Shown here in pieces: positions 1 through 7,848 of a DNA stretch of 7,848 nucleotides. Within the stretch, counting starts at the first letter, position 1. Each line of letters opens with the position of its first letter. A program made the position numbers and the translations under genes. Under the pieces are notes generated by a model. That model did not search any database. It was not told the DNA's origin and saw only the letters and a program-made list of their open reading frames with translations. This DNA comes from Chloroflexota bacterium. Lineage in GTDB: Bacteria > Chloroflexota > Anaerolineae > UBA3071. The stretch is taken from positions 1 through 7,848 of the forward strand of contig JACNHM010000282.1 in the NCBI GenBank assembly GCA_014383605.1. Reading direction: 5' to 3'.

Positions 1-326
1 GCCAGACGGCGCTCCAGCTCCCCAATGCGCTGGAGCAACAGCTCCGACAGACGATCCAGGAACGCCACGTCGTGGCCACCGCAACGCTGGCACGTCCAAG
101 GCGGCAGGCTGCCGGCCCAGAACACGTAGTACTCGATCTGCACGGGCCCGTCGCAAGTGAAGCAGTAGCCAGCGGCAGCCGACTGCCACGCCGAGGGATC
201 CCAGCTGGCGTGGTCGCTCGAAGAGGCGTTTACCGCCCCCGGGACGAGTCTGCCGGTGGCCACGGCATCCGGTCTCCAGTCTTCCCCTTTCATCGTTCCC
301 TCTGTTCGTGTTGGAGTCGGTACCAT
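1..326 (-). CDS. Zinc-ribbon protein, partial (runs off left edge)
   Basis: An open frame with no stop before base 1, so the C-terminus is missing. Two in-frame ATGs are plausible. The one at 326 has GGAG six bases upstream; the one at 293 has GAGG five bases upstream. I use 326 but cannot decide. The visible product has a polar N-terminus, then CFTC and CQRC pairs separated by 20 residues. This four-cysteine spacing is typical of a structural zinc ribbon. A leucine- and glutamate-rich stretch (around DRLSELLLQRIGELERRL) follows and looks helical or coiled-coil. No membrane segment is visible. It is the last gene seen in the operon, 71 bases after the stop of peptidase 3. I do not recognise the family. 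A regulatory or protein-interaction role is only a guess. Confidence 0.7.
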   Translation of the reverse strand, partial: MVPTPTRTEGTMKGEDWRPDAVATGRLVPGAVNASSSDHASWDPSAWQSAAAGYCFTCDGPVQIEYYVFWAGSLPPWTCQRCGGHDVAFLDRLSELLLQRIGELERRL

Positions 327-345
327 AGTGCTCTCCACGTTGGTT

Positions 346-383
346 AGGGCGCATAGTGGGCGTACAGCAGGCCAGTGCGCCCT
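346..383. repeat. Inverted repeat between peptidase 3 and the zinc-ribbon gene
   Basis: The arms AGGGCGCA (346-353) and TGCGCCCT (376-383) are perfect reverse complements around a 22-base loop. They lie in the short gap after the peptidase 3 stop. There is no T-run after the stem on the minus strand, so this is not a standard intrinsic terminator. It could be an operator, an attenuator or chance. The rest of the 294-397 gap shows nothing else clear apart from the two candidate start sites of the next gene. Confidence 0.3.
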
Positions 384-397
384 GACCGCTCGCCGGC

Positions 398-850
398 TCA
401 GGCCGGGAAGCGAACGAGCAGCAGTAGCGCATAGGCCAGGGCCACCAGCGAGTACATGGGAATGGCCGGCGTGCCGTGCTCCTCCAGATATGCTTCCGAG
501 GGCAGGTGCAGGAGCGCCCCTGCACCCCTGCGCCAGCGCAACAAGAGCACGGGCAGAGCAACGATCACATACCCCACGCAGAAGAAGATCAGGAAATCGC
601 TCCCCGGCCACAGAGCGAAGAGGGTGGCAAGCACCTTGGCGTCGGCCCCGCCCAGGATGTACAGATGCCACAGCGAGTAGATCAGCGGCAGGGCCAGCAA
701 CGCCCACCACTGACGGTGCACCAGCTGCCAGGCCAGGATGATGAGCAACGGCGGCAAGGTCAGCCAGTTGGGCACCTGACGGGTGTTCAGATCGTAGGCG
801 CTCATGGCCACCAGCCAGGCGGCCAGGAGCAGAAACAACCACAGGCTCAA
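398..850 (-). CDS. Prepilin peptidase 3, A24 family (TadV/CpaA-like), intact
   Basis: A membrane aspartyl peptidase of 150 residues, a normal length for the short CpaA/TadV type that lacks an N-methylation domain. It would cleave leader peptides of Flp pilins and TadE-like pseudopilins on the cytoplasmic face of the membrane. The protein is mostly hydrophobic helices. The two expected catalytic aspartates are D20 in YDLNTRQVPN and D70 in GGADAK. The second motif is GxAD rather than the usual GxGD. The start is TTG at 850, overlapping the zinc-finger stop as TTGA, with purine-rich GAGAGG just upstream. Residues 51-79 are identical to peptidase 2, and 85 bases are identical at DNA level. Unlike peptidase 2, this copy keeps its C-terminal helices. 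Family assignment is firm; substrate preference is unknown. Confidence 0.88.
   Translation of the reverse strand: MSLWLFLLLAAWLVAMSAYDLNTRQVPNWLTLPPLLIILAWQLVHRQWWALLALPLIYSLWHLYILGGADAKVLATLFALWPGSDFLIFFCVGYVIVALPVLLLRWRRGAGALLHLPSEAYLEEHGTPAIPMYSLVALAYALLLLVRFPA
615..699. repeat. 85-bp perfect direct repeat, copy in peptidase 3
   Basis: These 85 bases are identical to 1207-1291. The tract encodes the region from the third hydrophobic segment through GGADAK to LATLFA. Outside it the two peptidase genes diverge clearly: 17 differences in the first 50 codons. A perfect block inside diverged paralogues suggests recent gene conversion or a recombination footprint. Confidence 0.9.
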
Positions 851-1083
851 CGTCCTCTCTCCAGTCCTTCCAACTGCTCGGCCAGGGCCAGGAGCTCTGG
901 CCACGGTTCGTACCCCGTCCCCTGACAGCGAGGGCAGGTGGCGGCGTTGGCTGCCGTGTAGCTCATGTGGCCCGGCGGACACACGTGCCCGAAGCCGCCG
1001 CAGCGGGAGCAGGTTCTCTTCGCCCGCCGGCGCAACTCGGCAGCTATGTCTCTCAAGCAGGCCTGGCTCAGGGCGATCCCCAT
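847..1083 (-). CDS. Small cysteine-rich zinc-finger-like protein
   Basis: A soluble protein of 78 residues. The start is ATG at 1083 with GGAGG seven bases upstream, inside the 3' end of the truncated peptidase 2. The N-terminal third is a basic helix (around LRDIAAELRRRAKR). The middle holds CSRCGGFG, a further Cys and His (VCPPGH), then CPRCQGTG. The CxxCxGxG pattern is the repeat unit of the DnaJ-type cysteine-rich zinc domain, though only two units are present and no J domain is visible. The C-terminus is an acidic leucine-rich helix. It is wedged between two peptidase copies and overlaps both. Zinc binding is a reasonable inference; the function is unknown. A second CxxC protein lies just downstream at 1-326. 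Confidence 0.75.
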   Translation of the reverse strand: MGIALSQACLRDIAAELRRRAKRTCSRCGGFGHVCPPGHMSYTAANAATCPRCQGTGYEPWPELLALAEQLEGLERGR

Positions 1084-1442
1084 GCCCCGGCCTCCTCCAG
1101 CGCCGCTCGATTGCGGATTTCGGATTTCGGAATGCGGAATATTCCGCAATCCGCTTTCCGCGTTCCGCAATGGGATGTTCCGCAATCCGCAATCGGCAAT
1201 CGGCAGGCGAAGAGGGTGGCAAGCACCTTGGCGTCGGCCCCGCCCAGGATGTACAGATGCCACAGCGAGTAGATCAGCGGCAGGGCCAGCAGCACCTGCC
1301 ACCGACAGTGCGCAAGCTGCCAGGCCAGGATGGCCAGCAGGAGCGGAATGGTCAGCCAGTTGGGGACCTGGCGGGTCCGCAGGTCGCAGGCCGACATGAC
1401 CACAAGCCAGACAGCCAGGGTGACCAGCAGCCATGGGTTCAC
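1068..1442 (-). CDS. Prepilin peptidase 2, A24 family, C-terminus replaced by repeat sequence
   Basis: The first 79 residues align with peptidase 3 without gaps (62 identical) and keep both candidate catalytic aspartates: D20 in CDLRTRQVPN and D70 in GGADAK. Immediately after LATLFA the frame enters the heptamer array at 1110-1206. It encodes an arginine-, cysteine- and isoleucine-rich tail (for example IADCG) and stops at 1068. The C-terminal roughly 70 residues present in peptidase 3, including the remaining membrane helices, are missing. The start is GTG at 1442, overlapping the previous stop as GTGA, with GGAGG seven bases upstream. Translation signals are therefore intact, but the enzyme is probably inactive or altered. 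It could be a pseudogene kept for coupling to the downstream gene. Confidence 0.75.
   Translation of the reverse strand: MNPWLLVTLAVWLVVMSACDLRTRQVPNWLTIPLLLAILAWQLAHCRWQVLLALPLIYSLWHLYILGGADAKVLATLFACRLPIADCGTSHCGTRKADCGIFRIPKSEIRNRAALEEAGAWGSP
1110..1206. repeat. Heptamer palindromic array (word GATTGCG / CGCAATC)
   Basis: On the minus strand, 7-base words related to GATTGCG (GATTGCC, GATTGCG, GAACGCG, GAAAGCG) run in phase for roughly 14 units. The words then switch to reverse-complement forms (CCGCATT, CCGAAAT). The switch centres on a palindrome around GCGGAATATTCCGC, at about 1134-1147. The array starts exactly where peptidase 2 loses similarity to peptidase 3 and ends just before the SD of the zinc-finger gene. 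The same word appears in the array at 6326-6390. Confidence 0.88.
1207..1291. repeat. 85-bp perfect direct repeat, copy in peptidase 2
   Basis: Partner of 615-699. Its left end touches the heptamer array at 1110-1206 directly, so the identical tract stops exactly at the array junction. In peptidase 3 the sequence continues into the normal C-terminal coding region. Confidence 0.9.
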
Positions 1443-1828
1443 GGGCTCTCCTCCAGAGCAGCCTGCGCCACTTCAAGGCAGCGAGTACATCTTGTCTCTC
1501 GATGGGCAGCCCACCACCCCGTCAGAGCCCTCCAGCCGGTCTTCAGCACCCGCAGGGTGTGGTCGAAGCGGGACACCTCCTTTCGGCTGTCTGTGAAATA
1601 CACGGCCAGGAAACAGCCGGCCACACCGATGGCTGCGACAATGGCCGTCTCATGGCAGACCAAGGCCATGGCCGCCGTCAGAACCTCCAGGCCCATGGCC
1701 ATCCAGGCGATGCGGTGGTGCAGCCTGCTGTGCCGGCCGCGCGAGGCTACGAAGGTCACAGCGAAGGTCACGAGGGCGAAGGCCAACATGGGTCTCACCT
1801 CTGCCAGCGGCAGTGCTTTGGCCGTCAC
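1439..1828 (-). CDS. Small multi-pass membrane protein of unknown function
   Basis: A protein of 129 residues from a GTG start at 1828 that overlaps the previous stop as GTGA, with GGGAGG seven bases upstream. An internal ATG at 1789 (GAGGTGA just upstream) would give 116 residues and starts right at the first hydrophobic segment. Two or three membrane segments are visible: around MLAFALVTFAVTFVA, then a long hydrophobic stretch with LEVLTAAMALV and AIGVAGCFLAVYF. The tail is basic and cytoplasm-like, with one CTRC pair near the end. I do not recognise the family. Position inside the pilus operon suggests an accessory role at the membrane, but nothing in the sequence proves it. Confidence 0.72.
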   Translation of the reverse strand: MTAKALPLAEVRPMLAFALVTFAVTFVASRGRHSRLHHRIAWMAMGLEVLTAAMALVCHETAIVAAIGVAGCFLAVYFTDSRKEVSRFDHTLRVLKTGWRALTGWWAAHRETRCTRCLEVAQAALEESP

Positions 1829-2430
1829 GCGCCCACCTCCCGCGCCCGCTGCAGCCACCGGCGACGCCCGCCCCAAGCCCCGCCGAGGGGCCAGGGCCAC
1901 CGCCGCCGTGCGGCGGGCCTCTCCCAGACCACCAGGGTCCACTGCTCGGAACGGGGGAGCAAGGGCTGCTCGCCCGGCCTCTTGTTGCTCAGCGCCGTGG
2001 CGAAGGCGGCGGTCAGCTCCTCGGCCACGAAGGGATGGGCCGTCAGCCCGTCCACGATGAACCAGCGGCCGCCGGGATAGAGCTGCCTGGCCCGCTCAGG
2101 CTGCGGCGTGAAGGTGAAGAAGCGGCGCTGTTGGTGGGCGAAGGTCATGCTCAACGGCGCATCCGTGTGCACGTCGAAGAGCTGATCCACCTCTGCCCGC
2201 TCGCCCAACACGTCGAAGGCGATCTGGCTGACGGTGACCAGCAGGCTCTCCGGGGGCACGACGATGCTGCGCCCCAGCCCAGCTCGTTGCAGGGCCAGTT
2301 GCTGCAGGCCCAGAGCATAGACGGTCCGTGAGTGGTGCAGCAGAGCGTGGCGCATCCGCTCGCCGGCCAGGAGCACGGCCAGGATCAGGATGAACACGAC
2401 CAGAAACCACTCGAACACAAACGTCGGCAT
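1825..2430 (-). CDS. Single-pass membrane protein of unknown function
   Basis: A protein of 201 residues. The start is ATG at 2430 with GGAGG five bases upstream. Residues 5-22 (around FEWFLVVFILILAVLLAG) form one N-terminal membrane anchor without a lipobox or cleavage site, so the rest probably lies on one side of the membrane. The soluble part has mixed alpha/beta character and ends in a very basic, tryptophan-rich tail (ERPAARRRWPWPLGG and after). It begins 32 bases after the lipoprotein stop, one of the few true gaps in the operon, and its stop overlaps the next start by four bases. I do not recognise the domain. Membership in a pilus operon is the only functional hint. Confidence 0.75.
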   Translation of the reverse strand: MPTFVFEWFLVVFILILAVLLAGERMRHALLHHSRTVYALGLQQLALQRAGLGRSIVVPPESLLVTVSQIAFDVLGERAEVDQLFDVHTDAPLSMTFAHQQRRFFTFTPQPERARQLYPGGRWFIVDGLTAHPFVAEELTAAFATALSNKRPGEQPLLPRSEQWTLVVWERPAARRRWPWPLGGAWGGRRRWLQRAREVGA

Positions 2431-2462
2431 CGGTTCCTCCTCAATCAGTCCCGTTGCCCTTC

Positions 2463-3512
2463 CTACGGCGCAACGAAGGACAGAATCACCGTCGGCTGGT
2501 TCTCCAGTACCGGCTTGGGGTTGAACGTCAACGTCAGCGATTCGCCTTTCTGCGGAGCCGGATAGAAGACGAACTCGCCCTCCAACGACTGTCCGGGCAT
2601 CAACGCCCCCACCCGTCCAACGTGCTCTGGCCAATCGTCCAGGCTCCACCCGTCGAGCACGTAGCGCCTTTCTCCTCGCAGCTCGGGCTGTGTGGTCCAG
2701 GCCAGGGTCACTGTTTCCTCGATGTCACCCTCGGCCAGCATGGCCACCACGTCGATGGCCACGTGGGTCGGTGCTACGTGGACACTCTCGATGGCCACGG
2801 TGAGCTTACCCATCGTGACCTCGGCCACATCGTTGGCCTGGCCGGGTTTCTCTCGCTTGGGCCAGTCCGGGTTGGGCAGCGGCCAGGGCTCGCTCCAGAA
2901 TGAGATCTCCTCGCCAGGCAAAGCCACAGGAACGACGGAGCGCAGCAGGTTGATCCCCAGCCGCAGCCGGTAGGCGTCGAAGGCCGGCAGGCCGAAGCGC
3001 CACTCGCCCGCAATCTTCTCTCCGGGCTCAATGGCCAGCACCTCTCCCTCCGGCCAGGCGGGATACTCGTACACCCGCCCCGTGTTGTCCTGCAGGAGCG
3101 GCGGTCGGCCGTCGGCGCTTTTCAGCTCCAGAGCCTTGTCGCCCAGGTTCACCGCTTCCCAGGAGATGGCCAGGACCTCTTCCGCGATGCGCATCTCCCG
3201 CACGGTAAAGGTGAGGCCGTCCTGCTCGTGGGTCACTCCTACCTCGTATGCGCCCTCTGGCCAGACGGCTTGCCGTTCCCGACTGGTGACGCCCGAGCTC
3301 TCGGAGACGGGGGGACGAGGAGACGGGGTGACCTCACCCCCTCTCCTTGTCTCCCTCTCACCTTGTCCCCCTGTCTCCGTGTCACCTTGTTCCCTGGTCT
3401 CGGCAGGTGCCGGGGTGCGCTCCACCAGTTGCCTCAGTTGCCCCAAGGGGCCGCAGGCCAGCGAGGCAAGCACGATGATGATCAGCAAGATGTGTAAACG
3501 CTTTGATGTCAA
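2463..3512 (-). CDS. Probable lipoprotein with repeat-coded linker
   Basis: A protein of 349 residues from TTG at 3512, chosen because AGGAGG lies six bases upstream and a signal peptide follows at once. A short basic start (TSKR) leads into LHILLIIIVLASLAC. Cys20 is the likely lipidated residue, although Ser at -3 departs from the usual lipobox. Residues 38-72 are encoded by the octamer array 3298-3401 and are rich in E, T, G, R and P. They act as a linker between anchor and domains. From about residue 80 the chain looks like two tandem beta-sandwich domains (for example LTFTVREMRIAEEVLAISW, later LTVAIESVHVAPTHVAIDV). These resemble the DUF4352-type extracellular Ig-like fold, but this is by pattern only. 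It probably sits on the outer membrane face as an accessory or unrelated envelope protein. Confidence 0.78.
   Translation of the reverse strand: MTSKRLHILLIIIVLASLACGPLGQLRQLVERTPAPAETREQGDTETGGQGERETRRGGEVTPSPRPPVSESSGVTSRERQAVWPEGAYEVGVTHEQDGLTFTVREMRIAEEVLAISWEAVNLGDKALELKSADGRPPLLQDNTGRVYEYPAWPEGEVLAIEPGEKIAGEWRFGLPAFDAYRLRLGINLLRSVVPVALPGEEISFWSEPWPLPNPDWPKREKPGQANDVAEVTMGKLTVAIESVHVAPTHVAIDVVAMLAEGDIEETVTLAWTTQPELRGERRYVLDGWSLDDWPEHVGRVGALMPGQSLEGEFVFYPAPQKGESLTLTFNPKPVLENQPTVILSFVAP
3298..3401. repeat. Octamer palindromic array (word GAGACAAG) inside the lipoprotein gene
   Basis: Read on the minus strand in steps of eight from 3401: GAGACCAG, GGAACAAG, GTGACACG, GAGACAGG, GGGACAAG, GTGAGAGG, GAGACAAG, GAGAGGGG, GTGAGGTC. 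The words then invert: ACCCCGTC, TCCTCGTC, CCCCCGTC, TCCGAGAG. There are thirteen units with no phase slip. The array is in frame and encodes the linker after the lipobox. It shares its word with the array at 7142-7189. Confidence 0.9.
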
Positions 3513-3607
3513 GATGTCCCTCCTGCGACGTTGGCCGCAGCCAGGGGGCCAGCCTGGTCTGCCGGCCTCTCTGAAAAGCTGGCTTGGTTGCACATGGGGT
3601 TGCCCAT
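3509..3607 (-). CDS. Possible 32-residue leader ORF
   Basis: ATG at 3607 opens a frame beginning MGNPMCNQASFSERPADQ. It ends in TGA overlapping the lipoprotein start as TTGA, the same coupling seen elsewhere in this operon. A strong AAAGGAGG lies upstream but only two bases from this ATG. The next in-frame ATG, four codons on, is 14 bases away, so neither spacing is ideal. A small CTCC/GGAG stem could mask the SD. The peptide has no recognisable domain. It may be a coupling or leader peptide for the lipoprotein, or just a chance frame in the 3513-3670 gap. Confidence 0.3.
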   Translation of the reverse strand: MGNPMCNQASFSERPADQAGPLAAANVAGGTS

Positions 3608-3670
3608 CGCCTCCTTTCTGGAGAGGAGAGAACACACTACCGGGCCGTGCCCCCACGTGCCGCCGGAAGG

Positions 3671-4273
3671 TCAGGACTGCACCTGCACCACTTCGGCAGC
3701 GTGAAAGGTGTGCACCGTGATGGGTTGGCCGCCGTTCACCAGGCCGAAGAGGTTCGTCTGCACGGGCACGGCCAGATAAACCCCCACGGCGGGGCCGTTC
3801 GTCGTCCAGTGGCTCTCCCCGGCCAGGCCGGCCCTGGGCACGGGGGGAAAGCTCTGAACCTGCCCCCCGTTGGGGTTGCTGATGACCTGGACGATGACCT
3901 CATAGCCCGTGATCCCTCGCCCGGTCATGCCCTCGGTGACCACATTCAGGGCGGTGGAGTAGGCGCTCGACCCCAACCCCAGCTCGCCCCGCCGGAGGCC
4001 ATAGTACCCCACAAAGTCCCGCCCCTGGTTGGCTCCGGCCATGGCCGCGTCGGCGGCCAGGCCATAGGCGAAGTTGCGCACCTCGTGCAGGTGGTAGACA
4101 TCCGCCAGCACGGCCGCCGCCAGGATGAGGATGACCACCAGCATCACCCCACCGGCCCAGGCCTGTCCCCTGCGGGAAGTAGACAAGGAAACAAGTGGAC
4201 AAGTAGACAAGGCGGCCCTGTTCCTTACTACCCCTTGTTTCCTTGTTTCCTTGTGTACTTGTCTACTCTTCAC
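3671..4273 (-). CDS. TadE/TadG-like pilus-assembly protein 2
   Basis: A protein of 200 residues. The start is GTG at 4273, overlapping the previous stop as GTGA, with GGAGG seven bases upstream. Residues 3-34 are encoded almost entirely by the octamer array 4179-4266 and form an unusual basic N-terminal extension. RRGQ follows, then one membrane helix at about residues 42-58 (GVMLVVILILAAAVLAD). Next comes the HLHEVRNFAYGLAADAAMAGA segment, which resembles the helical start of TadE/TadG pseudopilins with repeated small residues. The rest is a periplasmic or extracellular beta-rich domain. If RRG is the processing site, +5 is glycine, not the expected glutamate, so cleavage is doubtful. Its place directly after the TadE gene supports a minor pseudopilin role. 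Confidence 0.72.
   Translation of the reverse strand: MKSRQVHKETRKQGVVRNRAALSTCPLVSLSTSRRGQAWAGGVMLVVILILAAAVLADVYHLHEVRNFAYGLAADAAMAGANQGRDFVGYYGLRRGELGLGSSAYSTALNVVTEGMTGRGITGYEVIVQVISNPNGGQVQSFPPVPRAGLAGESHWTTNGPAVGVYLAVPVQTNLFGLVNGGQPITVHTFHAAEVVQVQS
4179..4266. repeat. Octamer palindromic array (word GTAGACAA)
   Basis: Plus strand: GTAGACAA, GGAAACAA, GTGGACAA, GTAGACAA (4179-4210), a 24-base centre, then TTGTTTCC twice, TTGTGTAC, TTGTCTAC (4235-4266). The two 32-base arms are imperfect reverse complements and the total is 88 bases, exactly eleven units. It begins four bases after the start codon of the TadE-like protein 2 gene and is read through in frame. Confidence 0.92.
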
Positions 4274-4749
4274 GGATATGCCTCCACCACGTTGCTGTGC
4301 TGCGCCCGGAGGGTGACCTGGGTCAGACTCATGAAAGGCACGAGCGGCTGGTAATCCAGGGAGGCGCTGACGGTGAACTCCGTCTGGAAGCTCGTCGCAG
4401 GCATGTCCATGACCACCTGCACGTCGTCCCCGTAGCCTCCTCCCAGGAGGTTGTTGTCCACCTCCTCCCGGATCATCTGCACCGCCGTGACGGTGTCCGT
4501 GGGGTTGAAGGAGAGATAGCGGACCGCCCGGTAGCAGCCCACGTCCATGGAATGCTTGATGGAAATGGCCCTCCCCAGTTCCACGGCGCCGAAGAAGAGC
4601 AACACGGCGATGAGGATGAAGAAGGTCGTCTCGATGGAGACGCTGCCCTTCTGTGCAGAGGAGCAGAGGAGTGGGGGTGCGGAGGAGCATTCACCTCTGC
4701 TCCTCCGCACCTCGGCACCCCTGCTCAGATCACCAGAGAAGCCAGGCAT
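4270..4749 (-). CDS. TadE-like pseudopilin 1
   Basis: A protein of 159 residues from ATG at 4749, with GGGAGG five bases upstream, inside the end of peptidase 1 (20-base overlap). A TTG nine codons further upstream is in frame but less likely. The leader is long (about 35 residues), and most of it is encoded by the octamer array 4653-4724. The mature part starts at QKG/SVSIETTFFILIAVLL, with Gly at -1 and Glu at +5, matching the prepilin peptidase rule. One membrane helix (about 41-57) precedes AVELGRAISIKHSMDVGCYRA, the usual TadE pattern. A C-terminal beta-rich domain follows. It is predicted to be a minor pseudopilin of a Tad pilus, processed by a neighbouring A24 peptidase. Confidence 0.82.
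   Translation of the reverse strand: MPGFSGDLSRGAEVRRSRGECSSAPPLLCSSAQKGSVSIETTFFILIAVLLFFGAVELGRAISIKHSMDVGCYRAVRYLSFNPTDTVTAVQMIREEVDNNLLGGGYGDDVQVVMDMPATSFQTEFTVSASLDYQPLVPFMSLTQVTLRAQHSNVVEAYP
4653..4724. repeat. Octamer palindromic array with 13-bp perfect hairpin
   Basis: Nine in-phase units on the plus strand: GTGCAGAG, GAGCAGAG, GAGTGGGG, GTGCGGAG, GAGCATTC, ACCTCTGC, TCCTCCGC, ACCTCGGC, ACCCCTGC. The core GTGCGGAGGAGCA (4677-4689) pairs perfectly with TGCTCCTCCGCAC (4698-4710) across an 8-base loop. At 72 bases it is divisible by three and by eight. It codes for the leader of the TadE-like pseudopilin. Confidence 0.9.
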
Positions 4750-5230
4750 ACACGCCTCCCGCCAGCGCTGCGGCAATGGTGAGGTGCGGCCCCCGGCCGC
4801 CCCGGGTCTCCTCTCCCTCGGCCGGGTGCAGTTTGAAGGCCAGCAGGTTGGACAGATAGAAGCTGCCCAGTTCCCGCAGCCTCCCCCGGTACCGGATGCA
4901 GAGGGCCATGCCGCCCACCAGGACGGCGGCGCCGCACAGGGCCCAGAAGAATCTCACGTCCGGCCAGAAGGCGAAGAGGGCCATGAGTAGTTTGGCATCC
5001 CCGCCCCCGTAGAAATGCAGCGTCCAGCCGAGGAGGATCCCCCACCAGATGGCCAGCACCCAGAGCGCCCCCAGCCCCCGCTGGCTGAACTGCCAGATCA
5101 ATCCTGCGGCCATCAAGGGCAGGGTCAGGCCGTTGGGAACCGTTTGCGTCCTCAGATCCAACCACAGGGCCAGAGCCAGCGCGCCAGTGATCAGCGCCTT
5201 GACCAGCAGACAGATCAGCTCAGAGCCCAT
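4730..5230 (-). CDS. Prepilin peptidase 1, A24 family (TadV/CpaA-like)
   Basis: A hydrophobic membrane protein of 166 residues from ATG at 5230. It overlaps the stop of Flp pilin 3 by 11 bases, with GGAGG nine bases upstream. The catalytic aspartates are D25 in WLDLRTQTVPNGLT and D78 in YGGGDAK. This copy has the canonical GxGD motif, unlike peptidases 2 and 3. About five or six membrane helices are visible, and there is no N-terminal methylase domain, as in Tad-type peptidases. It would remove the leader of Flp pilins and TadE-like proteins. Its place between a pilin and a pseudopilin makes it the best candidate for the main processing enzyme here. Confidence 0.88.
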   Translation of the reverse strand: MGSELICLLVKALITGALALALWLDLRTQTVPNGLTLPLMAAGLIWQFSQRGLGALWVLAIWWGILLGWTLHFYGGGDAKLLMALFAFWPDVRFFWALCGAAVLVGGMALCIRYRGRLRELGSFYLSNLLAFKLHPAEGEETRGGRGPHLTIAAALAGGVYAWLLW

Positions 5231-5426
5231 CGTGGATCGCCTCCAGTTTGCTTTTCAGCGTGTTGAAGATGGCCACCAGGATGGGCACCAGCAGCGCCGC
5301 CAGCAGCGCCCCGATGACCACGTACTCGATGGCCGCCGCAGCCTCTTCGTCTCGGAGGAGGTTTCGCCATCCGCCATCCGCAACCTGTGGTGAGCAAAGT
5401 CGAACCACCCGCAATCTGCCTTTCAT
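5220..5426 (-). CDS. Flp-type pilin 3
   Basis: A protein of 68 residues from ATG at 5426, overlapping the glycosyltransferase stop as ATGA, with GGAGG seven bases upstream. The pilin signature is EEAAAAIEYVVIGALLAALL, with E34-Y35 at the usual +5/+6 positions, followed by one hydrophobic helix and a short charged tail (NTLKSKLEAIHDGL). Two things are odd. The residue at -1 is Ala rather than the near-invariant Gly. The leader is also about 29 residues instead of about 11, and much of it comes from degenerate repeat sequence (5368-5424). Its mature part differs from pilins 1 and 2, so it may be a separate pilin subtype. It is translated immediately ahead of peptidase 1. Confidence 0.82.
   Translation of the reverse strand: MKGRLRVVRLCSPQVADGGWRNLLRDEEAAAAIEYVVIGALLAALLVPILVAIFNTLKSKLEAIHDGL
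5368..5424. repeat. Degenerate heptamer-like repeat remnant
   Basis: On the minus strand this leader region contains GATTGCGG, GTTGCGG, ATGGCGG and ATGGCG, related to the heptamer word at 1110-1206 and 6326-6390. It also has GGTGG and CCACC flanking a centre. Phase and inversion are poor compared with the other arrays, so I treat it as a decayed or weak example. Confidence 0.45.
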
Positions 5427-7141
5427 CCTTCATCCTCCAACTTCCAAATCCTGATCCCCCGCTCCTCGAAGCTCAGGAACGGGACCAGCCGGCCGGGGTT
5501 CCCCGTCCCGCTCTCCGGCTCCAGCTTCACCGTTCCCCAAAGGGCCAGGTACTCCACCCCAAAGCGCTTCATGGCTTCGATCACCGTCTCCGTCTCTGCC
5601 ACTTCCTCGCCGGGGACGACGATGCCTGCCCTGCCCGTGCAGTAGGCCATCGCCGGCGGGTTGGGGGACATGACCCGCACCTGCGCTGGCGTGGAGGAGA
5701 AGGCCTCCCCCAGCCAGCGACAGGCCTCCTGGCCCTGGCTGGCCTCCCGCCAGCCGTGCAGCAGGGCCGCCGCGGTGAAGAGAACGGCGGTGACCGCTGT
5801 GAGGACCTGCAGATAGCGAGTCATGGGCGCCCCGCGGATGCCCTTCAGCTGCCCCAGCAGCCTGCCTGCCTCTTCCACCCCCAGGGCCGCCAGCCCGTAG
5901 CCGAAGGGCAGGAAGGCCGACAGGCTGTGCAGGAAGGTCCCGTGCACCGCAGGGAAGGCGTAGACAATGCCCAGCACCAGCCAGAGGAGCAGGGGATAGA
6001 TCAGAACGGGAAAGAGCTCTCTTCTGCGCCGTACCGCCCAGACCCCCAACCCCAGGAAGGGGACCTGCCAGATCTGGAAGGCGGCGCGGCCAAAGACGAC
6101 GAGGGCGCTGAACCGCAACGCCTCCCAGCGGGTGGCCAGGATCGTCCTCCAGCCCTGGGCCAGGAAGCGAGCGATGTCCGTGCGGGGCTCCAGGGCGAAG
6201 AAGTGGTTGTAGTCGGTGAGAAAGGCCGCATACAGCGGATCCACCGGCGACAGCTTCCCCCAGACCCGCAGGTTTCGCAGGTACATGGGCGCGACGACGA
6301 TCAGGTAGAGCCCCAGGGAGCAGATGATTGCGGAATGCGGATTGCAGATTGCGGAGTGATTCCGCGTTCCGCATTCCGCAATCCGCCATCGTCTGTAGAC
6401 CATCGCGCACAGCAGCACCACCCACAACAGCGGCGCATCCTGCCGGGTCCAATGCGCCAGCCCGATCCACAGCCCGGTACCAGCCAGCCAGATGGCTCCA
6501 TTAGTCCCTGGTCTGATGGCCTCTTGGTCCTTGGTCTTCTGGTCTGGTGGCCCTTGGTCGGATGGCGTCGTAGCCCTTCTGACCAAAGGCCGAGCACGAT
6601 CAGACCAGCCGACCACCTGACCATCTGACCAACCGACCATGGACTTGTACATACTGTACAGCGCCATGCCCCCGGCGACCGTGTACAGCGTGTAGCAGTC
6701 CGTGTCCACCAGGTTGGCGGCCATGGAACCGCAGGCCAGGGAGAAGATAGCCGCCAGGGCCGCCGTGCGTCTCCGGCCGCTGATCTCCCACGTGAAGCGG
6801 TAGGAGAGCGCCGAAGCCAGGGCAGCCAGCACCACCGCAGCCACCTGCGCTCCCCGGAAGGAAACGCCGAATACCTTCATCGCCGCCGCCTCGGCCAGGG
6901 CCTGCCCCGGCAGCCAGATGGCGCCTGCCGGGTGGGGAAGGCCCTCGGGCCCGTCCTGGTAGTGGCCGATCACGTCTTCTACCAGCCCTCTCCCCTTGGC
7001 CAGGTTCGCGGCCAGGAGATAGTAGTAGATGCTGTCCCAGGTGCGGGGATCCTCAAGGACGACAGCCGTCCCTCCCCGCACCACCAGGGCAACGAGAAAG
7101 ACGATCAGCAGTGGCTTGAGACCGGCAACTCTCCCCTTCAC
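5423..7141 (-). CDS. GT-C membrane glycosyltransferase (ArnT/PMT-like, GT39-type) with two repeat inserts
   Basis: A multi-pass membrane protein of 572 residues from GTG at 7141. The octamer array directly upstream supplies a GGGAG-type SD. The first extracytoplasmic loop carries WDSIYYYLLAANLAKGRGL (D36 and the tyrosines) and then LPHPAGAIWLPG. This is the acidic-loop pattern of GT-C enzymes that use lipid-linked sugars. GLAHWTRQDAPLL matches the conserved TRxD/E loop of the same superfamily. About ten or more helices and a soluble C-terminal domain follow. Residues about 168-215 and 252-273 are encoded by repeat arrays and fall in loops between helices. Without them the length is about 500, normal for the family. 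Acceptor and donor are unknown. Its place between pilin genes suggests pilin or envelope glycosylation. Confidence 0.82.
   Translation of the reverse strand: MKGRVAGLKPLLIVFLVALVVRGGTAVVLEDPRTWDSIYYYLLAANLAKGRGLVEDVIGHYQDGPEGLPHPAGAIWLPGQALAEAAAMKVFGVSFRGAQVAAVVLAALASALSYRFTWEISGRRRTAALAAIFSLACGSMAANLVDTDCYTLYTVAGGMALYSMYKSMVGWSDGQVVGWSDRARPLVRRATTPSDQGPPDQKTKDQEAIRPGTNGAIWLAGTGLWIGLAHWTRQDAPLLWVVLLCAMVYRRWRIAECGTRNHSAICNPHSAIICSLGLYLIVVAPMYLRNLRVWGKLSPVDPLYAAFLTDYNHFFALEPRTDIARFLAQGWRTILATRWEALRFSALVVFGRAAFQIWQVPFLGLGVWAVRRRRELFPVLIYPLLLWLVLGIVYAFPAVHGTFLHSLSAFLPFGYGLAALGVEEAGRLLGQLKGIRGAPMTRYLQVLTAVTAVLFTAAALLHGWREASQGQEACRWLGEAFSSTPAQVRVMSPNPPAMAYCTGRAGIVVPGEEVAETETVIEAMKRFGVEYLALWGTVKLEPESGTGNPGRLVPFLSFEERGIRIWKLEDEG
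6326..6390. repeat. Heptamer palindromic array (word GATTGCG) inside the glycosyltransferase gene
   Basis: Plus strand in steps of seven: GATTGCG, GAATGCG, GATTGCA, GATTGCG, GAGTGAT, then inverted TCCGCGT, TCCGCAT, TCCGCAA, TCCGCCA. The two halves form an imperfect palindrome. It is read in frame as about 22 residues (RIAECG, then CNPHSAII) in a loop between two membrane helices. It uses the same word as 1110-1206. Confidence 0.9.
6501..6640. repeat. Octamer palindromic array (word TGGTCAGG) inside the glycosyltransferase gene
   Basis: On the minus strand from 6640: ATGGTCGG, TTGGTCAG, ATGGTCAG, GTGGTCGG, CTGGTCTG in exact 8-base phase. A less regular centre follows, and then reverse-complement words (GACCAAGG, GACCAGAA, GACCAAGA) with some 7-base spacing. 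It is read in frame as about 47 polar residues (GWSD, PSDQ, PDQK) between two membrane helices. Confidence 0.85.
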
Positions 7142-7189
7142 CGTGTCTCCCTGTCTCCTTGTCTCCGTGTCTCCCCCTCTCCCCGTCTC
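7142..7189. repeat. Direct octamer array (word GAGACAAG) filling the pilin 2-glycosyltransferase gap
   Basis: Six in-phase units on the minus strand: GAGACGGG, GAGAGGGG, GAGACACG, GAGACAAG, GAGACAGG, GAGACACG. The last unit abuts the GTG start of the glycosyltransferase, and the first lies just after the pilin 2 stop. The GGGAG inside the array is correctly placed to serve as its ribosome binding site. There is no inverted half, unlike the other arrays. Confidence 0.9.
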
Positions 7190-7193
7190 GACG

Positions 7194-7373
7194 TCAGGGC
7201 GGCGGCGTGGGGATCTGGCTCTCCAGGCTGGAACGAGCCGCCTCGCCCTTGTCCTTCACCGTGTCCATGAGGGCCCAGACGATGGTGCCCAGCAGGCCCA
7301 GGGCCAACGCCGCAATCACGATGTATTCCACCGCCGACGCCCCTCGTGCATCGGCGAGAAACTTCCTCCACAT
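7194..7373 (-). CDS. Flp-type pilin 2
   Basis: A protein of 59 residues from ATG at 7373 with AGGAGG five bases upstream. An in-frame extension of 14 codons to 7415 exists but would run through the hairpin and lacks this SD. The leader is MWRKFLADARG, cleaved before ASAVEYIVIAALALG, with Gly at -1 and Glu-Tyr at +5/+6: a textbook Flp signature. One hydrophobic helix is followed by WALMDTVKDKGEAARSS and a proline-rich end. It is clearly paralogous to pilin 1, sharing the ALALG-to-WALM-TVK-KG framework. It is predicted to be a major or alternative pilin subunit of a Tad pilus, processed by an A24 peptidase of this operon. Confidence 0.9.
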   Translation of the reverse strand: MWRKFLADARGASAVEYIVIAALALGLLGTIVWALMDTVKDKGEAARSSLESQIPTPPP

Positions 7374-7398
7374 ACGCTCCTCCTGAACCCAAAGTGTG

Positions 7399-7434
7399 GG
7401 GGATTGGGGGAGCACCCTTGCTCCCCCAATCCCT
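7399..7434. promoter_or_regulatory. Strong hairpin between pilin 1 and pilin 2
   Basis: GGATTGGGGGAGCA (7401-7414) and TGCTCCCCCAATCC (7419-7432) pair perfectly across a 4-base loop, with one further G-C pair outside. It lies 26 bases upstream of the pilin 2 start. There is no T-run after it, so it is not a typical intrinsic terminator. It more likely stabilises or processes the message, or attenuates readthrough from pilin 1 to the rest of the operon. Confidence 0.65.
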
Positions 7435-7442
7435 TCATGGCC

Positions 7443-7474
7443 GGGGGGACACCTCGCTGGCCAGGTCTCCCCCC
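7443..7474. promoter_or_regulatory. Second hairpin in the pilin 1-pilin 2 gap
   Basis: GGGGGGACACCT (7443-7454) and AGGTCTCCCCCC (7463-7474) are reverse complements with a single mismatch around an 8-base loop. It sits just after the pilin 1 stop and 8 bases before the stronger hairpin, making a tandem pair. A barrier to 3' exonucleases, giving extra pilin 1 message, is a reasonable inference. Confidence 0.55.
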
Positions 7475-7489
7475 GTAAGTCCGATGCGC

Positions 7490-7675
7490 TTACGGCGCGC
7501 TAAACGTAGGGAAGGTCGAGCTGGACACCTGGCTCTCGGCCAAGTCGCCCTTGCCCTTGACGGTGTTCATCAGGGCCCAGATGCAGGTGCCCAGAATCCC
7601 CAGAGCCAGCGCACCGCCCACCAGGTACTCCAGCATGGTGGCGCCGCTCTGATCCTTCATGAAACTCTTGAGCAT
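7490..7675 (-). CDS. Flp-type pilin 1
   Basis: A protein of 61 residues from ATG at 7675 with GAAAGGAG seven bases upstream, one of the strongest SDs in the window. The leader is MLKSFMKDQSG, cleaved before ATMLEYLVGGALALG, with Gly at -1 and Glu-Tyr at +5/+6. One hydrophobic helix follows, then WALMNTVKGKGDLAES and a short serine-, threonine- and proline-rich end. Length and layout fit the Flp family exactly. It is the first gene of the operon as seen here. It is separated from pilin 2 by two hairpins, which would suit a major pilin made in excess. Upstream genes lie outside the window, so the true operon start is not certain. Confidence 0.92.
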   Translation of the reverse strand: MLKSFMKDQSGATMLEYLVGGALALGILGTCIWALMNTVKGKGDLAESQVSSSTFPTFSAP

Positions 7676-7702
7676 GTGGTGTCTCCTTTCTTCTCTTTAT
7701 TC

Positions 7703-7718
7703 TCGTGATGTCGTGATG
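7703..7718. repeat. Tandem octamer in the pilin 1 leader
   Basis: TCGTGATG occurs twice without a gap (CATCACGA twice on the minus strand), 28 bases upstream of the pilin 1 start. It could be a regulator site or a minimal member of the octamer-array class. An AT-rich GAGAATAAAG lies between it and the SD, but I cannot define a promoter with confidence. Confidence 0.45.
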
Positions 7719-7774
7719 GCAGAGGCCGGTCACTGACGGCTGCCAGCCGCCGCCAGAGACCGCATCCCCTGCGG

Positions 7775-7796
7775 GAAGCCCCAAGAGCGGGGCTTC
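7775..7796. promoter_or_regulatory. Hairpin upstream of pilin 1
   Basis: GAAGCCCC (7775-7782) and GGGGCTTC (7789-7796) are perfect complements around a 6-base loop. No T-run follows on the minus strand. It may end an upstream transcript or lie in the 5' untranslated leader of pilin 1. I see no gene in 7676-7848. Confidence 0.4.
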
Positions 7797-7803
7797 GCCC
7801 CAG

Positions 7804-7848
7804 AACCTCAAACTGCAAACTCCCCATCGCTTTGAGGTTGGAAGTTTG
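7804..7848. repeat. Heptamer palindromic array at the right edge
   Basis: In steps of seven: AACCTCA, AACTGCA, AACTCCC, CATCGCT, TTGAGGT, TGGAAGT, then TTG at the window end. AACCTCAAA (7804-7812) is the exact reverse complement of TTTGAGGTT (7831-7839). It is the same architecture as the other heptamer arrays with a different word, and it probably continues beyond the window. Confidence 0.7.

Follow-up and report, generated by a model that had tools for sequence, protein, structure and literature searches.

Dispersed tandem repeats of short words have been described from several bacterial groups. The cyanobacterial short tandemly repeated repetitive sequences (STRR) consist of one heptamer in direct repeats. 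Here we describe arrays of 7- or 8-base words, many of them paired in opposite orientations, in a 7,848 bp stretch of a Chloroflexota genome (assembly GCA_014383605.1, contig JACNHM010000282.1, positions 1 to 7,848; this whole stretch is called the window) and in further genomes. These arrays are like STRR in their dispersed 7-base tandem unit, but differ from them in having degenerate words, periods of both 7 and 8, and inverted halves.

The paired arrangement itself has a precedent in Geobacter metallireducens, where sets of tandem octanucleotides and heptanucleotides form pairs on opposite strands, with several word sets per genome; they include tandem 8-mers GTTGCTYN and a GGACCGG heptamer set found within and between genes (PMC2700814). 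Those sets were matched by BLAST, each was shown as one alignment, and they were read as predicted regulator binding sites or RNA elements (PMC2700814). Our arrays resemble them as tandem 7/8-base repeats in opposite-strand pairs. Unlike the Geobacter sets, they are not one alignable family: the words differ among sites and among relatives at one site, and units align within one word. What is new here is the in-place replacement of word and period, the polarity, the independence of the arms, and the division of words into fixed and variable positions. Word replacement, polarity of unrelated words and arrays in protein linkers do not appear in the part of the Geobacter account that describes these sets (PMC2700814). 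A literature search returned no title or abstract opening telling of polarity or of word swaps, subscription papers lying mostly outside that search.

Among other 7-base repeats, the TAACTGA repeats of Beggiatoaceae include one indirect repeat beside 169 sets (PMC4679880), and (GATAGRA)n satellites occur in Chloroflexus aurantiacus, which belongs to one phylum with the arrays of the window (PMC6749651). As they are described, these are dispersed 7-base tandem units as here, but, as in STRR, with one word each and in direct repeats. Vertebrate interstitial and fusion telomeric sequences have short G-rich words, lie head-to-head in fusions and are inserted at break sites (PMC8537989, PMC7215372). 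Our arrays are like fusion telomeric sequences in their short G-rich words and head-to-head order, and the G-rich strand running 5′ to 3′ towards the junction from both sides is found in them too, except in one Chloroflexota genome (G003). Unlike telomeric sequences, which are eukaryotic and have one telomerase word, they have many 7-8-base words and no linked reverse transcriptase. Rickettsia palindromic elements (RPEs) form families of ~150 bp that encode a conserved peptide and can lie in frame within genes (PMC10969869). Like RPEs and miniature inverted-repeat transposable elements (MITEs), our arrays are palindromic and may sit in frame in genes; unlike RPEs, they revealed no common element, and their encoded peptide changes with the word. 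The original prediction, made from the window alone, took STRR and RPEs as the nearest comparisons and held that neither matches both features of the arrays, one architecture and changing words; in view of the paired Geobacter sets, this was too strong.

Results

Polarity of paired arrays

Arrays no more than 60 bp apart were treated as neighbours, which gave a first set of 101 pairs. The G-rich arm came first in 68 of the 72 scorable inverted pairs in which both arrays carried the same word (n = 76: 68 G-rich first, 4 C-rich first and 4 weak); a further 8 same-word pairs were direct. Neighbours with different words showed the same order in 13 of 16 scorable pairs (n = 17: 13 GC, 0 CG, 2 GG, 1 CC and 1 weak). 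Further stretches, drawn mostly from the same genomes as the first set, gave 27 G-first, 0 C-first, 1 GG and 2 weak same-word pairs besides 3 direct ones, and the GC order in 7 of 8 different-word pairs (7 GC, 1 CC and 0 CG). There were 4 G-first pairs and 1 weak pair in 20 Chloroflexota genomes which had not been selected by word. It should be noted that loci found with a G-first search pattern contributed one pair to the first set and two to the further set; leaving them out gives 67 of 71 for the first set and, supposing that both belonged to the 27, 25 of 25 for the further set, so that the result is unchanged. Counted by stems, 66 had more G than C in the 5′ arm and 9 had more C than G. 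Ordinary 10-bp stems outside arrays gave G>C to C>G counts of 45:34, 9:20 and 12:10, with no consistent bias.

In paired arrays, the G-rich strands of both halves point 5′ to 3′ at the middle, with shared and with unrelated words alike, G003 excepted. The constant feature is this polarity and not the palindrome. Since unrelated words are unable to pair, the palindrome seems to be a by-product of the polarity rule.

The two arms of an array

Neither half of an array looks like a copy of the other. In 59 palindromes, units in mirrored positions had a mean likeness of 0.868, as against 0.872 for shuffled units, and only one palindrome, array 1 of the window (listed below), had mirrored units closer than shuffled ones at the 0.05 level. 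The values were 0.874 and 0.866 in 22 further palindromes, whereas simulated fold-backs gave 0.952 and 0.881. The arms of one array were also no more alike than arms of other arrays with the same word (permutation P = 0.09-1.0 in 8 genome-word groups, each of which holds 3-8 palindromes and is weak singly). The word itself was common to both arms more often than in re-paired arms, at 0.69 versus 0.50 in the Caldilineaceae genome G004 and 0.81 versus 0.31 in the Planctomycetota genome G002. As the arms match in word above re-pairing and their variants do not match, the word seems to be chosen per site or neighbourhood, with variants coming from a genome-wide pool.

Arrays in the window

The following features were found in the window, strand being given for genes only.

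1107..1210, no strand: array 1, period 7, word GATTGCG with variants GATTTCG, GAATGCG and GATTGCC, from self-comparison and inverted arms; G-rich arm 1107-1140, C-rich 1141-1171 and 1179-1205
3302..3401, no strand: array 2, period 8, word GAGACAAG/GAGACGGG; G-rich arm 3302-3332, C-rich arm 3334-3401
4177..4267, no strand: array 3, period 8, word GTAGACAA/GGAAACAA; G-rich arm 4177-4211, C-rich arm 4233-4267
4653..4726, no strand: array 4, period 8, word GCAGAGGA/GAGGAGCA; G-rich arm 4655-4689, C-rich arm 4692-4726
5365..5448, no strand: two weak period-7 runs, 5365-5384 and 5422-5448, both C-rich on the plus strand, from Tandem Repeats Finder
6326..6390, no strand: array 5, period 7, word GATTGCG; G-rich arm 6326-6355, C-rich arm 6359-6390
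6504..6640, no strand: array 6, period 8 with slips, word TGGTCNNN, reverse complement NNNGACCA; arms 6504-6578 and 6596-6640
7130..7189, no strand: array 7, period 8, word TGTCTCCT (reverse complement of the GAGACAAG family); one-armed, C-rich on the plus strand
2463..3656, minus strand: open reading frame (ORF) of 397 amino acids (aa) without a Pfam match; array 2 in frame, in a linker
4270..4776, minus strand: TadE-like protein (PF07811, 23.2 bits against a cut-off of 22.9); array 4 in its leader
5423..7141, minus strand: 572-aa protein without a Pfam match of its own; arrays 5 and 6 both in frame

We compared the window with itself at offsets 3-40, using 30 dinucleotide shuffles as a control. 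Three segments of period 7 and five of period 8 were found, with scores of 15-31 against best shuffled scores of 12 and 13 at these two periods. There were no segments at offsets 3-6, 9-11, 13-15 and 17-22, and extra matches at offsets 16, 23, 24, 32 and 36 fall on the same arrays, as multiples or slipped forms. The lone exception is a period-12 direct repeat at 5268-5310, which has no switch. Tandem Repeats Finder agreed with the self-comparison; the two weak runs score under the threshold of the latter. The arrays are therefore real, with at least seven clear and two weak ones as first claimed, and only periods 7 and 8 stand out. A further weak pair of repeat runs, C-rich first, lies at the end of the window (7804-7848), and a search of the window against Rfam for known structured RNA gave no matches at the gathering score.

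The words had been described as strictly in phase and as switching to their reverse complement near the middle in most arrays. Strict phase does not hold throughout, as the stretch 6504-6578 requires an offset of 23 bases, and the words proved to be degenerate. The switch is present in 6 of the 7 clear arrays, but the arms are not unit-for-unit mirrors, and outside the window palindromes are not in the majority. A search for inverted arms gave 45 pairs, and the 25 longest of these include 1107-1145/1172-1210, 3302-3332/3349-3379 and 4178-4212/4233-4267 for arrays 1-3, and 4661-4689/4698-4726, 6326-6348/6361-6383 and 6532-6557/6590-6615 for arrays 4-6. Two words do recur at separate sites, as stated originally: GATTGCG at 1109 and 6326, and a GAGACAAG-type word at 3303 and 7138. 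The claim of one architecture with changing words was borne out.

Array 3 lies directly beyond the stop of the TadE ORF and within an open frame, 3671-4690 on the minus strand, whose start is uncertain. Array 4 codes for the leader stretch ahead of the KGSVSIE motif of the TadE-like protein. Array 7, one-armed over 7138-7189, sits between the ORFs at 5423-7141 and 7194-7415 (both minus strand).

Words at fixed sites

At three in-gene sites of the window, relatives carry other words and even other periods, as read from their peptides: the words of P0002, P0003, P0016, P0022, P0024, P0026, P0029 and P0032 were inferred from peptides and not from DNA, those of P0029 and P0032 being the least certain. 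The alignment of the 572-aa protein included 9 of 13 matches, among them P0002 (61% identity) and P0003 (75% identity over 79% of the query), both of which have array-like peptides at both array sites. At the site of array 5, the window encodes the GATTGCG heptamer peptide, and P0002 and P0003 an octamer-type peptide; at the site of array 6, the window and P0002 have a TGGTC-type repeat and P0003 a heptamer-type one. Six more distant homologues have no array-like peptide at these sites, P0008 having short extra stretches.

In an 18-row alignment of the TadE leader, the window has an octamer array, P0022 and P0024 a heptamer peptide, P0026 a different octamer peptide, P0029 and P0032 another type, and P0028 and P0033 nothing, which makes the last two protein-level empty sites; P0021 is near-identical to the window and the other rows are short or unclear. 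The leader inserts resemble array peptide from border to border. P0003 and P0022 (longest contig 3264 each) may lie on one contig, as may P0002 and P0023 (23232 each). For the ORF at 2463-3656, an octamer-like stretch was found in P0016 only, among the rows from other species.

Replacement was seen at the DNA level in G004, in a 2825-aa ORF of polyketide-synthase type with ketoacyl-synthase, acyltransferase, ketoreductase (KR) and dehydratase matches (L026 12960-14032). This ORF holds tandem units that are 88-92% identical in the 200-base flanks compared, which we read from their sequence as putative acyl-carrier domains, with no carrier among the Pfam matches listed. The linkers between the units are arrays with different words, all in frame; linkers 1 and 2 have a common octamer block and similar heptamers, and linkers 3 and 4 are more different. 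In the same region, an octamer block is nested inside the loop of a heptamer palindrome. The sites compared show array content that turns over faster than its flanks, with borders kept.

Spread among genomes

A search of the GTDB collection with a palindromic GAGACAAG pattern, itself G-rich first, found 13 loci spread over 9 genomes, 5 from Chloroflexota (7 loci) and 4 from Planctomycetota (6 loci); this pattern was the basis on which these genomes (G001-G009) were picked. A 14-base word pair was present in 9/9 of them and its reversed (backwards) control in 0/9. GATTGCG, which was not used in choosing the genomes, was found with at most 1 mismatch in 7/9 (absent from G004 and G009) and gave one or two matches in 5 of 16 other genomes from the same search. 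Its backward control, GCGTTAG, had no matches in 8/9 genomes and 95 in G002. GCGTTAG is also an abundant tandem word in G002. The variants GATTTCG, GAATGCG and GATTGCA from the window recur in G002 (Planctomycetota) and G003 (Chloroflexota).

The numbers of period-7 and period-8 arrays were 58 and 31 (total 89) in 400 kb of G004, 46 and 7 in 400 kb of G002, and 20 and 1 in 200 kb of G003; as contigs from G001-G009 were mostly chosen for word matches, these densities are not those of random samples. Block shuffles of G004, G002 and G003 gave 2, 0 and 0 arrays, all periods together, so the sampled genomes hold arrays far above the level of shuffled sequence and not at the chance level that would have spoken against the original claim. 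A clear two-armed stem (score ≥ 14) was present in 76 of 197 array clusters from seven sources, the window included, and at 6 of 197 random places. In 20 Chloroflexota genomes not selected by word, at least one period-7 or period-8 array was found in 7/20, with 3-20 kb sampled from each. Related species can be without arrays in the stretches sampled: three genomes of the genus of G127 had none in 85, 84 and 40 kb, and a fourth had 3 in 41 kb. We take this genus to be Chloroflexus, judging from its GATAGRA arrays. G127 also carries a dispersed element of ~500 bp in dozens of copies.

Arrays of period 9 and period 10 also occur in G004. In the sampled stretches, arrays of period 9 (CACAAAGAA and CCTTTGCGC) and period 10 (CACGAATCTG), some of them palindromic, lie at L014 8656-8730 and 13660-13697, L031 19421-19483, L110 12152-12182 and L114 7272-7332, and are possibly longer-word cousins of the period-7 and period-8 arrays. 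Two sequences in G004 (L018 13499-13557 and 13573-13770) have many more copies across the genome. Two contigs of G061 and two of G389 end inside arrays (the ends of L123, L125 and L126 and the start of L127).

Fixed and variable positions within words

Deviations cluster at set positions of the word in most well-sampled families. One G004 family has an almost invariant GGTGA, followed by two bases that differ in ~40% of units; the GAGACAAG family of G002 has an almost invariant GGAGA, with three bases that differ in 23-33%. The chi-square value for concentration by position reached 140 on 7 degrees of freedom, for GGTGAAGG in G004. Two small GAGACAAG groups showed no clear concentration, with values of 9.9 for Gemmataceae-type loci and 12.9 for the window (each on 7 degrees of freedom). 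With these two groups excepted, the uneven deviations speak against neutral point mutation of formerly perfect arrays. Selection of words solely to avoid stops was also rejected, the effect being weak: among 93 distinct words, 5, 32 and 56 had 0, 1 and 2 open strands, compared with expected values of 10.8, 36.2 and 46.0.

Genomic location and flanks

Array clusters were well inside genes, as placed by a home-made gene caller, less often than expected: 18 of 79 in G004 (52.8 expected), 17 of 51 in G002 (37.2) and 4 of 21 in G003 (15.3). In the genes examined, the arrays occupy leaders, loops or linkers and preserve the reading frame. Of the lone arrays in G004, 20 of 23 within genes and 17 of 19 in co-directional intergenic positions had the C-rich strand as the coding strand; the tendency was weaker in G002 (10/14 genic, 9/15 intergenic) and G003 (4/5 and 6/10).

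A common 9-mer was shared by at most 4 flanks of the 79 clusters in G004 and 2 of the 51 in G002, with no fixed ends or conserved flanks. This agrees with the claim that the arrays are not copies of a single element; given the diversity of words and the lack of common flanks in G004 and G002, a mobile element common to all arrays is rejected. Over 20 kb compared between G389 and its congener G425, one array is present in both, with the same word but in a shorter form.

Genes of the window

A Pfam search of 10 ORFs from the window revealed a minus-strand set of Tad-pilus-like genes, with three ORFs matching prepilin peptidases, one TadE-like ORF and two Flp-type ORFs. The match of one Flp-type ORF (7194-7415, minus strand) is under the Pfam cut-off, and a 15-bp perfect hairpin lies immediately upstream of this ORF (7394-7433). 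Two distant relatives of the 572-aa protein contain PF13231. The best-scoring relative of this protein in 400 Chloroflexota genomes was 37% identical, and P0002 as a query found no loci among viral contigs. The family of the ORF at 2463-3656 gave no matches at E 1e-10 in the same number of Chloroflexota genomes (400), in a search which had no known positive and is uninformative alone.

There are two copies of a prepilin-peptidase gene, at 615-842 and 1207-1442. In an alignment they share 85 identical bases (615-699 = 1207-1291), adjoining the edge of an array, and diverge thereafter; the right edge of array 1 is the point, 1207, at which the second copy is cut off. The identical bases suggest that gene conversion or copying may recently have taken place next to the array.

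Discussion

We propose that these interstitial, convergent arrays of short words mark places at which a DNA break or gap was closed by extension of G-rich 3′ ends followed by joining. We hold this tentatively, at a probability of about 0.38. Each exposed 3′ end would be extended with G-rich words from a genome-wide pool, by a putative enzyme that adds repeats or through copying of arrays at other sites. Joining of the extended ends would then give G-rich words, a junction and C-rich words, which is the polarity of a telomere-telomere fusion. Survival of an array would be set by whether the site tolerates the insert, re-breakage at the array followed by re-extension would swap the word in place, and slippage would later add or remove units. 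Polarity, arm independence and in-place replacement are together what two-sided 3′ extension and joining would leave, and we count the position of array 1, exactly at the cut-off of the duplicated peptidase gene, in favour of break sealing. A wider version, which we consider unlikely, is that several bacterial phyla carry an end-healing activity which adds G-rich words from a multi-word lexicon at breaks and joins the capped ends; a genome would then keep hundreds of fused, telomere-like scars that are rewritable in place, some of them translated as leaders or domain linkers.

Several results weigh against the sealing of breaks as the source of the arrays. Polarity is missing in G003 (5:6 by G/C count, and 1 GC versus 2 CG among neighbour pairs), and clear two-armed palindromes make up only 76 of the 197 clusters. 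The mirror test is weak for a single array, in that 18% of the simulated fold-backs fell below 0.05, and a fold-back could be masked if its units were scrambled afterwards. Neighbouring units are modestly alike, as slippage predicts (0.814 at lag 1 against 0.762 when shuffled; 0.695 at lag 5 against 0.73). The C-richness of lone arrays on the coding strand is not predicted by end extension. We found no DNA-level empty site for a pure array, the window arrays included. One array-bearing site is instead a MITE-like insertion, 103 bp with ends TACCA/TGGTA and a TCA duplication (G389 L128 11592-11696), which is absent in G425 and holds a heptamer run, so some arrays travel in a MITE-like element. 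As for the machinery, searches of 15 genomes for the RVT_1, Ku and Y1 families identified no enzyme for repeat addition. RVT_1 was present in 12/15, including array-poor genomes, and was not found in the array-richest, G004 (divergent enzymes or unassembled regions could escape such a search, and template RNA was not sought). Ku was found in 1/15, so that joining in general is not of the Ku type. RVT_1, Ku and Y1 transposase were dropped as markers, since no link with array density was seen in the 15 genomes, which are of unstated completeness and of which part were sampled for density.

Slippage expansion together with ectopic recombination between same-word arrays survives best among the alternatives, and we regard it as possible, if on the unlikely side. 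Arrays would start by chance, lengthen in steps of 7-8 bases, exchange units or blocks and be kept where harmless, without a dedicated system. This would fit the likeness of adjacent units, the long homogeneous arrays and 14-base higher-order runs that are present, the orthologous array which keeps its word in G389 and G425, and the finding that, in most genomes, the long simple repeats met most often are heptamers, with slippage as the proposed cause (Mrazek 2007, as cited in PMC4679880). What it leaves unexplained is why G-rich arms converge, above all where the words are unrelated, and also the change of period at one site and the occurrence of the same word variants in two phyla.

It is distinctly improbable that the arrays are inverted clusters of binding sites for DNA- or RNA-binding proteins, such as nucleoid proteins or regulators, held by selection. 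The words are motif-like, with fixed and free positions as in GGTGAAGG, a smaller share of arrays than of random places falls within genes, and the Geobacter precedent was read as IHF/HU sites (PMC2700814). Yet words are swapped at one site between relatives and between duplicated units, arrays are located in protein leaders and linkers, related species can be without arrays in the stretches seen, and dozens of words per genome would demand many proteins.

We give very little credence to fold-back template switching, in which an array-bearing nascent strand would turn and copy itself into the second arm. Long imperfect palindromes exist, their arms have a common word above expectation and array 1 alone passes the mirror test, but unit variants have no overall mirror correspondence and neighbours with unrelated words show the same polarity, so fold-back is disfavoured as the main source of the second arm. 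The suggestion of a generating process was thus upheld in part: word and period are replaced at orthologous and duplicated sites, but template switching does not account for the second arm. MITE- or RPE-like mobile elements with variable tandem cores are about as improbable: the sequence bearing heptamer runs is dispersed in G389, where the copy absent from G425 lies between two ORFs (the first purF-like by eye) and has terminal inverted repeats with a target-site duplication, but around the arrays of G004 and G002 no fixed ends and few shared flanks were found, and the TadE leader inserts resemble array peptide throughout.

Hepta- and octamer repeats of bacteria have so far been explained by slippage or by regulator sites, and neither predicts the polarity of unrelated words together with word replacement. 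With this polarity, an old curiosity becomes a testable question of how some bacteria seal DNA ends. The arrays are, besides, a source of new protein linkers and leaders.

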